The translations under genes and the position numbers were made by a program. From the NCBI GenBank assembly GCA_038851035.1, contig JAWCLH010000019.1, forward strand, positions 1-52,948: 52,948 nt of DNA. The letters are read 5' to 3'. This document shows, piece after piece, positions 21,900 to 25,669 of the stretch. How positions within the stretch are numbered: position 1 is the stretch's first letter; each line of letters starts with the position of its first letter. The notes beneath the pieces were generated by a model. It was not told the DNA's origin, ran no database searches, and saw nothing but the letters and a program-made list of their open reading frames with translations. Origin of the DNA: Thermoplasmata archaeon. Lineage in GTDB: Archaea > Thermoplasmatota > DTKX01 > VGTL01.

Positions 21900-21939
21900 G
21901 TTTGCGGGGTGCCGCGCCTGCCGTGCCGACCAAAATCAA

Positions 21940-21946
21940 GATATAC
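21940..21946 (+). promoter_or_regulatory. TATA box of ribK
   Basis: GATATACC-type sequence about 26 bases before ATG 21969, fitting a leaderless transcript. On the other strand it lies 40 bases from the LysE start and could also serve that gene. Confidence 0.5.
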
Positions 21947-21968
21947 CAAAGAAGTGGTAGGTATACCG

Positions 21969-22643
21969 ATGGCGGAGCCCGAGTCTGTCCAGCCAGAGCT
22001 CATCAGAATTCTAAAGGAGCTGGCGCTTCTCGGCGGCATCACCGGGACGGTGATGATAACATCCGGCGAGCTCGCGAAAAGGCTAGGGATGAGCCAGCAG
22101 TCCGCCTCCAACAAGATTATACAACTCGTCGAAGAGGGTCTGGTCACGCGCAGGATGGGGCCGCGCAAACAGGCGCTCCAGCTGACGCCAAAGGGAATCG
22201 GGGCACTGCGCAGGGAGCACTCCGACTACCTGAAGATATTCGAAGGCGCCGGCAGGCTTCTGATTACAGGACAGGTGACCAGCGGCTTCGGGGAGGGCGG
22301 GTACTATGTGGGGCAGGAGGCCTACCAAGCCCAGTTCCGCCAGAAGCTAGGGATGAAGCCCTACCCGGGCACCCTCAACCTTCGCGTCAGCGGCCAGGAG
22401 CTAGCTAAGTTAATGATACTGAAGGAGTCGCCCGGAATAACGCTGGAAGGCTTCACGAGGGATGGAAGGACCTTTGGAAATGGTCGCATGTTCCGCGCCA
22501 GAATTCGAAACCTCTACTGCGCGGTCGTGATTCCCCACCGCAGCCACTATAGCGACATGATAGAGGTGATCTGCGAGAAGAAAATCAGGGACGTGCTGGG
22601 CCTGAGGGACGGCGACAGTGTCAGGGTGGAGGTGATTCTCTGA
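21969..22643 (+). CDS. ribK: CTP-dependent riboflavin kinase with N-terminal wHTH
   Basis: The protein has 224 residues. Residues about 10-85 form a MarR-type winged helix (SGELAKRLGMSQQSASNKII, a wing with TRRMGPRKQALQLT). Residues about 90-224 are the DUF120 kinase domain with GQVTSGFGEGGYYV, PYPGTLNLRV and the C-terminal RDGDSVRVEV. The enzyme phosphorylates riboflavin to FMN using CTP, as in Methanocaldococcus RibK. The HTH fusion is common in euryarchaea and suggests a self-acting repressor of riboflavin genes. ATG 21969 is chosen because the TATA box at 21940 lies at the right distance and because the upstream extension reads across it. Confidence 0.93.
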   Translation: MAEPESVQPELIRILKELALLGGITGTVMITSGELAKRLGMSQQSASNKIIQLVEEGLVTRRMGPRKQALQLTPKGIGALRREHSDYLKIFEGAGRLLITGQVTSGFGEGGYYVGQEAYQAQFRQKLGMKPYPGTLNLRVSGQELAKLMILKESPGITLEGFTRDGRTFGNGRMFRARIRNLYCAVVIPHRSHYSDMIEVICEKKIRDVLGLRDGDSVRVEVIL

Positions 22644-22714: not shown

Positions 22715-23635
22715 GTGAAGGAGAGGGGGGCGAGCAGGGACCCGAGGCGGGAGGGCGGTCGGGAGTCTGGAAGGGAGGCGGTAGGTTCCAAGGAGCGTGA
22801 TGGAGAGGGTGGCATAACAAGCTTCCGAGAAGGGGGTAGGCCATGCGGCGCTAGAGCGGGCGCCGTAACCAAAGAGCTAGAGGGTGGGGAGGGCAGCCCC
22901 TCCACCGTGGTTGAGCAGGACGAGCCTCGCGGGTGTGGCTCGGAGAGGGGGGCCGCCGCCGGAGTGAGTCCGCCCGCCAGCCCCGGACGCCCGAGGGAGC
23001 TAATGGCCTCCCACGAGCTGCCGAGGAGGGGGGGAGCGAAGAGGAGCCTCAAACCGGCCATCGCTGGGGTTCTCCTTTTAATTGCGGCTTCCGCGGGTTT
23101 TGTGACCTCCGGGAGGTACATCGGAGCGCCCCACCTCCCGTGGCTTCTCGGCTCCCATGGCGAGCTCACCGGGGAGATCAAGAATGAGAGCGGCGGGGGA
23201 ATTCAGAACGCTACCGTGTGCGTTCTCGAATTGAGGAGCGTGTCGAACGAGACTGGATACTTCAGGCTTTCCGGTGTGCCGACCGGCAGGCAAGAGGTTG
23301 TTGTGGAGGCTGACGGCTACAAGAAACTCAGGTTTATCACCCTCGTATATGAAGCGCCCGTGAAGCTCTCGCTCAAGCTCAAGGAGGGCAATGGAACGGA
23401 GGTGGTTGACGAGCATCCCCAGCAAGTCAGCTCCTTATATACATGCGGGGCCCTTACTCTGGTCTTCAGCGCCGTCGTGCTGGGGGGGGCTTTTTCCGCC
23501 ATGAGGCGCAAACGATACACCATTGCGCTGACAGGGGCCATGGTCGGTCTCGCGCTCCCACCCTTTCCAATCGCCACCGTTCTCTGCCTAACCGCGATCG
23601 CACTGCTGATATTCTCGAGGGGTGAGTTCGGCTGA
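22715..23635 (+). CDS. Membrane protein with extracytoplasmic carboxypeptidase-regulatory-like domain (paralogue 1)
   Basis: The protein has 306 residues if it starts at GTG 22715, or 210 from ATG 23003, which has GGAG just upstream. The first ~110 residues of the long form are Arg/Gly/Glu-rich and likely disordered. A membrane helix (PAIAGVLLLIAASAGFV) is followed by a small beta-sandwich of CarboxypepD_reg type (GELTGEIKNESGGGIQNATV, TGYFRLSGVPTGRQEVVVEA). Then come three or so hydrophobic helices. The pattern TM, sandwich, TM bundle recurs in the next gene, so the two are paralogues from a duplication. Function is unknown; the sandwich is outside the membrane. Confidence 0.6.
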   Translation: MKERGASRDPRREGGRESGREAVGSKERDGEGGITSFREGGRPCGARAGAVTKELEGGEGSPSTVVEQDEPRGCGSERGAAAGVSPPASPGRPRELMASHELPRRGGAKRSLKPAIAGVLLLIAASAGFVTSGRYIGAPHLPWLLGSHGELTGEIKNESGGGIQNATVCVLELRSVSNETGYFRLSGVPTGRQEVVVEADGYKKLRFITLVYEAPVKLSLKLKEGNGTEVVDEHPQQVSSLYTCGALTLVFSAVVLGGAFSAMRRKRYTIALTGAMVGLALPPFPIATVLCLTAIALLIFSRGEFG

Positions 23636-23673
23636 GGAAGGATGTCGGGTCGGGAGCAACCCGGCGGAAGCGC

Positions 23674-24816
23674 GTGGGTGACGCAGGGCTCCCGTGCGGG
23701 CAGTCAGGAGATTGTGCCTCGCAGAGGGAAACGGATGGGGGTGAGGCTCCCCACAGACCGCCGGCCAGGGAAGGAGGGAGAGGCCGGGGACCTCCCGCGC
23801 TGAAAAGGGTCGCATCGTTCCTCTTCCTCGCCTCCTTCGTCCTTGGAGTCTTGAACGCTGCGTACGCCATAATCGGAATCGCGGGCGTGTCGACGCCCGA
23901 CGGGACCCACGTCTCTGGGACATGCGAGCTCTCCGGCGAGGTCCGAGACACCGCCGGCCGCCCCATCGTCTGCGCCACGGTCATAGTCACCGACGCATCC
24001 CTGTCGGCCCTGACGGACGAGAGCGGGTGGTACGTCATTAAGGGAATTCCCCCGGGAGTCCACCGCGTCGAGGCCACGGCGCCGGGCTATAATAGGATGT
24101 CCGTCAGAGTGGACCTGAGGCCCAGCCTGCTGAAGTCCATGGACTTTACGCTGGAGTACGGGGGTGCAGACTTCTACTTGGACGAGGCATTGGGCGAGAG
24201 CTTCTCTGAGCCCGTGGCCTCCCTACTTTGGACGGTGCCGCTGCTCCTTTCGTGCTCCGTCTGCGCGCTTGCGGCGGCGCTGCTGTCCCTCGGAAGGAGA
24301 CCGGGAAGGCTCGCGCTTGCGCTCGGCGCAGCATCGATTCCCTCCCTGGGGTTTGGTGTAGGGAGCGCCCTCGCGGCCTTCGGAACGGTTGCGCTCGCTC
24401 TTCATATCACGGGCTGTCGCTGGCTCAGGCGAGCAAGACGCCCCGCGGGCGCGCCCGGGCCCGTAATGCTCACCAACCAGAGGTGGAGGGCGGGGAGCGG
24501 AGAGAAGGCCAGCGCCACGGGAGCTACCCCCCCTCCCGGGCAGACAAAAATGCCCGCTCCCGCGCCCTCGCCGATGGAGGGAGGCGAAGGGGGGGAGAGA
24601 GAGACTTGCGCGGAAGAAATCCGGGGGCGCGTTGCGCGATATGCAATTGGGAGGAGGCGAATCAGTCAGGAAAGAGCGCTCTGCTGCGTCTGCATTAAGG
24701 AAATCCATCCTGGCCAGAGGTACATCAAGTGCGTTTGCGGCCGGAGAATGCATTTCGCATGCGTCCAAGAGCCGAAGTGTCCGGAGTGCGGCCATCCATT
24801 CAGAGCAGGGAAGTGA
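23674..24816 (+). CDS. Membrane protein with carboxypeptidase-regulatory-like domain and cytoplasmic C4HC3 zinc finger (paralogue 2)
   Basis: The protein has 380 residues. A charged N-terminus leads to a helix (SFLFLASFVLGVLNAAYAII), then a CarboxypepD_reg-like sandwich (CELSGEVRDTAGRPIVCATV, SGWYVIKGIPPGVHRVEATA), then about three helices (about 190-250), then a Gly/Pro-rich linker. The last ~40 residues form a zinc finger with the spacing C-x2-C-x12-C-x-C-x4-H-x2-C-x5-C-x2-C, the order seen in RING-CH and PHD-type fingers. Paralogue 1 lacks this finger. RING-type fingers often recruit E2-like enzymes, but ligase activity here is only a possibility. The GTG 23674 start is uncertain. It forms a probable operon with the previous gene. 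Confidence 0.65.
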   Translation: MGDAGLPCGQSGDCASQRETDGGEAPHRPPAREGGRGRGPPALKRVASFLFLASFVLGVLNAAYAIIGIAGVSTPDGTHVSGTCELSGEVRDTAGRPIVCATVIVTDASLSALTDESGWYVIKGIPPGVHRVEATAPGYNRMSVRVDLRPSLLKSMDFTLEYGGADFYLDEALGESFSEPVASLLWTVPLLLSCSVCALAAALLSLGRRPGRLALALGAASIPSLGFGVGSALAAFGTVALALHITGCRWLRRARRPAGAPGPVMLTNQRWRAGSGEKASATGATPPPGQTKMPAPAPSPMEGGEGGERETCAEEIRGRVARYAIGRRRISQERALCCVCIKEIHPGQRYIKCVCGRRMHFACVQEPKCPECGHPFRAGK

Positions 24817-24901: not shown

Positions 24902-25669
24902 ATGATGAGCCGGGAATTCTGGAGATGGCTCTCGCGGCTGAGCAGTGGCACGGTCCAGAAAGGCTTCCACCCACTGGTTCTTATTCCCGCCGCAATCACC
25001 CTCATCTGGGCACTGCTGAACGTCCTAGCACCCCTCTCGCTGCCCCCGGGCTCGGTGACGGGTCTCTCGGGCTCGGTCGGTGTCATCGATAACGGCGAGC
25101 TCACGGCTCACATGAACCCTCTCGCTAAGGCGATTTACGAGAGCGGGGACGTGAACTGCCACCAAAGGGCCGACCGGTCCATTTTCATCAACGGCAACCA
25201 AATGCCCTACTGCGCCCGCTGCACCGGAATCTTCCTGGGGCTCGCGCTGGGCACCGCTCTCTCGCTATATTTCGTCGTGGAGCTCAGGCTCTGGCAGATT
25301 CTCCTCGGCCTCGGGCCGCTCGGTCTCGACGGCGGAGGGCAGCTCCTCGGCCTCTGGGAGAGTACAAACCCCGTGCGCATCGTCACGGGCGCTCTGGCGG
25401 GCGGGGTCACGGGCATTGCGCTCGGCTACATCTTCTTCGTTCTCGAGAGCTTTCTGGGGGAGAGGCTGGGGAGGAGGGCGGCGGGACTGGGCGGCGTCAA
25501 TAGAGCCCCTCCGCGCCCCCAGGATGCAGAAGACAACGTTCGATGTGGTGATGAGGGCGAGAATTCCAAGCCCGACGGGCTCGAGGGTGGCAACGCCGCC
25601 GAGGTACGCTCCCAGGATAATAATAAGGAGCGAGAGCTCGACCCCGCTCCAGAAGAGCCCCGCAAATAG
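24902..25669 (+). CDS. DUF2085 membrane protein
   Basis: The protein has 255 residues. The motif DVNCHQRADRSIFINGNQMP followed by YCARCTGIFLG is the diagnostic C-H-Q ... C-A-R-C-T-G signature of DUF2085. About four helices are visible (28-48, 100-122, 128-148, 160-185). The cysteines may bind a metal; the function is unknown. A GGTGAGG site precedes ATG 24902. The last ~60 residues (from about 195) are hydrophilic and lie on the strand opposite to the membrane segments of the next gene. That tail could be the by-product of a missing stop, but no earlier stop exists in frame. Confidence 0.8.
   Translation: MMSREFWRWLSRLSSGTVQKGFHPLVLIPAAITLIWALLNVLAPLSLPPGSVTGLSGSVGVIDNGELTAHMNPLAKAIYESGDVNCHQRADRSIFINGNQMPYCARCTGIFLGLALGTALSLYFVVELRLWQILLGLGPLGLDGGGQLLGLWESTNPVRIVTGALAGGVTGIALGYIFFVLESFLGERLGRRAAGLGGVNRAPPRPQDAEDNVRCGDEGENSKPDGLEGGNAAEVRSQDNNKERELDPAPEEPRK

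Follow-up and report, generated by a model that had tools for sequence, protein, structure and literature searches.

The stretch of DNA analysed here (the window) comprises 52,948 nucleotides of contig JAWCLH010000019.1 from a Thermoplasmata archaeon, and in it two neighbouring genes encode similar membrane proteins, of which only the second ends in a putative zinc finger. This raises the question of what such a finger does at the end of a surface protein in an archaeon, and whether it belongs to a system of ubiquitin-like (Ubl) protein modification, as the first-pass annotation had proposed.

Architecture and history of the paralogue pair

The tandem membrane paralogues described at first were recovered where they had been placed, at 22715-23635 (+) and 23674-24816 (+), with one CarboxypepD_reg domain in each and the finger in ORF2 only. 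As annotated, ORF1 (22715-23635, +) comprises 306 aa starting from a GTG. Since GGAG lies just 5' of an ATG at 23003 and the MASHxLP start is common to the orthologue in the related genome G001, ORF1 probably starts at this ATG (210 aa) and not at GTG 22715, judging from these sequence signals. The features of the locus are as follows:

21909 to 22643, forward strand: upstream neighbour, a winged-helix and CTP-dependent riboflavin-kinase-like ORF (named by sequence appearance)
23003 to 23635, forward strand: ORF1, the finger-less paralogue, with TM1, a CarboxypepD_reg ectodomain (about 23165-23380; PF13620) and C-terminal TM helices
23674 to 24816, forward strand: ORF2, the paralogue with the C-terminal finger (380 aa from GTG, start uncertain)
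23794 to 23883, forward strand: ORF2 TM1, residues 41-70 (AlphaFold2 helix; hydropathy)
23929 to 24156, forward strand: ORF2 CarboxypepD_reg beta-sandwich, residues 86-161, predicted extracellular (PF13620)
24217 to 24435, forward strand: ORF2 TM2-TM4, residues 182-204, 210-225 and 227-254 (helices of the AlphaFold2 model)
24436 to 24678, forward strand: ORF2 predicted cytosolic linker, Pro/Ala/Gly-rich, of low confidence (pLDDT mostly 22-35)
24682 to 24789, forward strand: ORF2 C4HC3 RING-like finger with ligands C337, C340, C353, C355, H360, C363, C369 and C372 (alignment, profiles)
24902 to 25669, forward strand: downstream neighbour, a DUF2085 membrane protein (PF09858, E 2.5e-26)

Both CarboxypepD_reg domains (PF13620) scored above the cut-off of 32.3 bits, with 42.8 bits (E 6.9e-11) for ORF1 and 55.9 bits (E 5.6e-15) for ORF2, in which homology starts near residue 42. 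The beta-sandwich of ORF2 was mostly well predicted by AlphaFold2 (pLDDT 71-91 across blocks 81-150). A membrane bundle, noted earlier, is present, and its arrangement had to be mended, because in the ORF2 model TM1 lies ahead of the ectodomain and three helices lie behind it. From this order of helices the finger is predicted to be cytosolic, on the side to which it had first been assigned, and the loop charges of ORF2 (RRPG between TM2 and TM3, RARR after TM4) fit the same orientation. As for ORF1, our guess is a finger-less partner or decoy derived from tandem duplication.

The order riboflavin-kinase-like ORF, paralogue 1 and paralogue 2 with the finger was kept in G001 and G002, and DUF2085 was also found downstream of the finger-bearing paralogue in G001 and G020. 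A single finger-less homologue followed by DUF2085 was found in G003, G007 and G023. Since the finger is present at the ORF2 locus in four genomes (the window's genome, G000, together with G001, G002 and G020) and absent in the syntenic orthologues of these three, it is a lineage-variable addition to the locus; the concern of the first-pass annotation that orthologues might lack the C-terminus was thus borne out in part. An E2 was present in all four finger-bearing genomes and, among the three finger-less ones, in G003 only. A query with two sequences against a named genome collection returned one close orthologue (VGTL01000060.1) and a weak KSB1 match. In several finger-less ORF1/ORF2 homologues (L035, L036, L037, L041, L042 and L048) a zinc ribbon lies at the N-terminus, ahead of TM1, and in the homologue of G020 an N-terminal zinc ribbon and a C-terminal finger occur together.

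Affinities of the finger

The pattern C-x2-C-x12-C-x-C-x4-H-x2-C-x5-C-x2-C was found at the C-terminus of ORF2 exactly as first described, with the last ligand, C372, eight residues ahead of the stop, and all eight ligands were kept in the G001 and G002 orthologues. When the 52-residue tail of ORF2 was searched against 60 related genomes, matches were obtained in 19. In an alignment of 25, and later 31, fingers the ligands were invariant or nearly so, in the order C4HC3; a cross-brace is not visible in the structure model, which is poor. All 25 sampled fingers matched Pfam zf-RING_2 at E < 1 and 22 of them matched Prok-RING_1 (PF14446) at the same threshold (best 4.6e-17). The profile of the finger family matched mainly RING and PHD structures in the PDB, with RING-H2 E3s aligned over the whole domain (RNF24, E 2e-7; RNF165/Arkadia, about 1e-6).

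ORF2 itself is a distant case. Its finger alone reached no Pfam family above cut-off (zf-RING_2, E 0.011) and gave no match to Prok-RING_1 at E <= 1 (cut-off 29.1 bits), while the G020 orthologue was borderline for the latter model, with 29.0 bits in the protein scan and 32.8 bits in the genome scan. For a leave-out profile, 27 fingers were taken from proteins other than the four of ORF2 type. This profile scored ORF2 at 37.1 bits; the highest score among 200 shuffles of the tail was 19.3 bits, and five local zinc ribbons reached at most 17.2 bits. By these scores the pattern is more than chance, the ORF2 finger belongs to the Prok-RING_1-like family of this phylum, and a plain zinc ribbon, named at the outset as the result that would refute a RING-like finger, was rejected; the quality of the structure model was too low for a decision on this point. 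AlphaFold2 gave the finger a pLDDT of 53 alone and about 45 within the whole of ORF2 (two-sequence input, no zinc), and Foldseek with this poor model returned mostly RING matches, none of them significant (best E 0.13), which we do not count as evidence.

On profile comparison we therefore assign the ORF2 finger, as a divergent case, to a RING-like family that lies near Prok-RING_1. True RING-CH and PHD fingers have a long segment between the sixth and seventh ligands (C6-C7), of at least 11 residues. Since this loop has 5 residues in ORF2, the finger cannot be counted among them although the ligand order fits, so that of the RING/PHD-like assignment made earlier the RING-like part stands and the RING-CH/PHD part falls. 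The segment has 6 residues in 61 of 64 relatives, and none of the 64 fingers has a Trp in it. After C372 ORF2 continues with G373-H374; the position after the eighth ligand is Gly in 44/64 fingers, so a linchpin Arg/Lys is not located there, and the next position is R/K in 30/64. Between the first two cysteines, 56/64 fingers have I/L/V at the E2-contact position, which is V339 in ORF2. As read from the alignment, the ORF2 finger is a compact RING-like finger without two features of the archaeal E3 that has been tested experimentally.

A Ubl system in the genome and the distribution of fingers with E2

E1- and E2-like genes, for which the first-pass annotation had recommended a search, were found in the window's genome as an E1-Ubl-E2-JAB set, and the run that holds this set also encodes two more fingers of the family. 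Six genes on one strand of contig C3 (L080, G000:C3:112500-132000; L106) encode a TM-finger protein, E1, a coiled-coil finger protein, Ubl, E2 and a JAB peptidase, apparently as an operon. The first gene, which overlaps the E1 open frame, encodes a receptor-type protein of 971 aa with a signal-like N-terminus, PKD and He_PIG/cadherin-like repeats, a TM segment and the finger. It is followed by the E1 (ThiF, E 2e-47), the coiled-coil protein of 3155 aa with its finger at the C-terminus, the Ubl ending in PDPEGGG (ubiquitin E 0.002 and YukD E 5e-5, both below family cut-offs), the E2 (UQ_con, E 2.4e-15, with HPN and GGYVC motifs) and the JAB peptidase (E 2.6e-10). The conjugation set of this genome is thus complete, with ThiF, UQ_con and JAB above cut-offs, GGYVC in the E2 and GGG at the end of the Ubl. 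Altogether six fingers were found in the genome, and for five of them the protein has predicted TM segments and carries the finger at its C-terminus; the remaining three are at the ends of TM proteins on contigs C2 and C20. The TM-finger protein on C2 (L121) has a PKD and repeat ectodomain and is followed by a separate ORF that by eye resembles an M14-type carboxypeptidase. On contig C47 (L081, G000:C47:1-9940) there is a second E2, with genes for a HAD-like and a ThiF protein after it, and a similar E2 with a Ubl 5' of the gene occurs in G001 (L088).

A receptor-type protein with such a finger had been thought unusual in archaea. This expectation does not hold for the finger in this phylum, in which 123 of 345 genomes encode a RING-like finger at E <= 1e-4. 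At E <= 1e-8, finger and E2 occurred together in 79 of the 345 genomes, the finger only in 26, E2 only in 9 and neither in 231 (Fisher p 3e-44, with genomes counted as independent and kinship ignored). Counted by family, both were present in 23, the finger only in 6 and E2 only in 3, giving p between about 1e-4 and 1e-6; the value varies with the total number of families that is assumed, estimated at 45-53. A phylum-specific E2 profile detected all six positive controls and revealed no hidden divergent E2 in any of the 26 finger-only genomes. These genomes include the whole families f11, with fingers of the same TM type, and f24 and f35, with coiled-coil fingers. Of the E2-positive genomes examined, 5/6 have a system-type E1 (E <= 5e-68), the sixth being G299, whose E2-like domain misses the usual catalytic Cys; the finger-only genomes examined for E1 gave generic ThiF/MoeB-like matches only (best 2e-18).

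Among 66 distinct fingers, a set that is not a random sample and includes many loci truncated on the 5' side, 42 were preceded by a hydrophobic, TM-like segment, and 45 ended within 20 residues of the C-terminus. Linkage of finger genes to E1, E2, Ubl or JAB genes was found in families f1, f3, f22 and f49. In G024, from a second family, a TM-finger gene overlaps an E1-Ubl-E2-JAB run, and G001, G003 and G004 contain finger-E2-JAB runs. In f49 (L109/G301, L110/G299, L111/G334) the Ubl forms the N-terminal part of a fusion with an E2-like domain, encoded next to, and divergently from, a giant coiled-coil finger gene; the position of the catalytic Cys reads GGVVKMEY, GGDIHCEY or GGIIRMAY compared with GGYVCTRL, which looks UEV-type. 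In G035, a genome in which no E2 was found, a 1598-aa coiled-coil finger protein adjoins an FtsZ-like gene (L091, G035:C1:870000-889000).

Interpretation and comparison with known systems

Because of the apparent C3 operon and the phylum-wide co-occurrence of finger and E2, the partner of the finger is likely, on genomic context, to be a dedicated E1-E2-Ubl system. Whether ORF2 acts as a membrane-anchored, E3-like adaptor of this system we consider an even question, and it is the explanation we prefer. The ectodomain of ORF2 would have a binding partner at the cell surface or would keep ORF2 within a surface complex, the cytosolic finger would recruit E2~Ubl from the E1-Ubl-E2 system of the genome, the recruited E2~Ubl would modify membrane-proximal proteins, and the JAB peptidase would reverse or process the Ubl tag. 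Zinc binding, E2 binding, Ubl transfer and the response to an extracellular signal are all steps that we infer for ORF2; the computed support consists of the architecture, the homology to fingers adjoining E1 and E2, the locus kept in four genomes and the co-occurrence with E2. Against the E3-like adaptor stand several points: neither W58 nor R69 of the experimentally tested archaeal E3 has an equivalent in the finger, 26 genomes have a finger without an E2, three orthologues are finger-less, the Pfam scores are below cut-off and the model is poor. We extend the reading tentatively, and with some doubt, to transmembrane receptors with CarboxypepD, PKD, Ig/cadherin-like or CARDB ectodomains as a class of membrane-anchored RING-like E3s of a dedicated Ubl system, which would couple surface sensing to Ubl signalling outside eukaryotes.

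The main rival, possible if doubtful, is that the finger is a general zinc-stabilised cytosolic docking module of surface proteins that takes no part in Ubl transfer and serves in assembly, envelope organisation or scaffolding; its co-occurrence with E2 would then reflect shared ancestry and larger gene repertoires. This rival stays alive because the features of the E2 groove (the RING helix/tryptophan loop and the linchpin) are missing and because there are E2-free lineages, with TM-finger proteins persisting in f11 without E2 or system-specific E1 and coiled-coil fingers persisting in f24 and f35; that the finger is a variable add-on at the ORF2 locus also suits it. The linkage of fingers to conjugation genes in four families and the survival of the co-occurrence at family level argue the other way. 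An E2-linked context without the canonical E3 linchpin would also suit a finger that binds Ubl or E2 non-catalytically, ORF2 being a modified receptor or substrate or a recruiter of modified proteins. The f49 fusion, which lacks the catalytic cysteine beside a coiled-coil finger gene, points in this direction, but f49 may be a derived, decayed case, and we find this explanation improbable. That the eight ligands form an ordinary double zinc ribbon is very improbable: weak matches to such models (DZR_2, E 0.075) and the abundance of zinc ribbons in these genomes are set against a treble-clef/RING spacing that includes [FY/M]-H-x2-C and CPxC, the low scores of the local ribbons with the family profile, and PDB matches mainly to RING and PHD.

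In a survey dated December 2014, archaeal ubiquitin genes were found as single-domain proteins (PMC4327156), and the archaeal Ubl system known from experiments works with a small RING protein (PMC5654768). In the present genomes, which have E1, E2, Ubl and JAB, RING-like fingers lie at the predicted cytosolic end of surface proteins, a TM-finger gene joining the E1/E2/Ubl/JAB genes in two families. A small literature search of partial coverage returned no description of this system in this phylum. If the fingers act with E2, Ubl tagging would be under surface control in archaea outside the groups usually tied to eukaryote origins, with components small enough for reconstitution.

The E3 of Caldiarchaeum subterraneum, srfp, belongs to the RING-H2 type and is a small protein that needs W58, R69 and I30 (PMC5654768). 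As in the Caldiarchaeum system, Ub(l), E1, E2, RING and a JAMM peptidase are encoded together in an archaeon, and a hydrophobic E2-contact residue lies between the first two cysteines (I30, corresponding to V339). The fingers described here, which are putative E3s, differ from srfp in being mostly on membrane-anchored or giant coiled-coil proteins and in having no counterparts of W58 and R69. The eukaryotic transmembrane RING E3s RNF13 and ZNRF3, both matched by the profile, share with ORF2 the order ectodomain, TM and cytosolic RING, whereas ORF2 has a short C6-C7 loop and another ectodomain; the profile comparison covers the finger and gives no evidence for common descent of the whole architecture. 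With Prok-RING_1 (PF14446) the finger shares the C4HC3 ligand pattern and spacing, and several family members score above its curated cut-off, whereas the ORF2 finger falls below the detection of that model and is part of a protein that also has four TM helices and a CarboxypepD_reg domain predicted to be extracellular. Finally, SAMP/Urm1-type archaeal modification, the pathway suggested at first, likewise has a ubiquitin-fold tag and a ThiF-type E1. To our knowledge SAMP conjugation uses no E2, whereas the system described here includes an E2-like enzyme.
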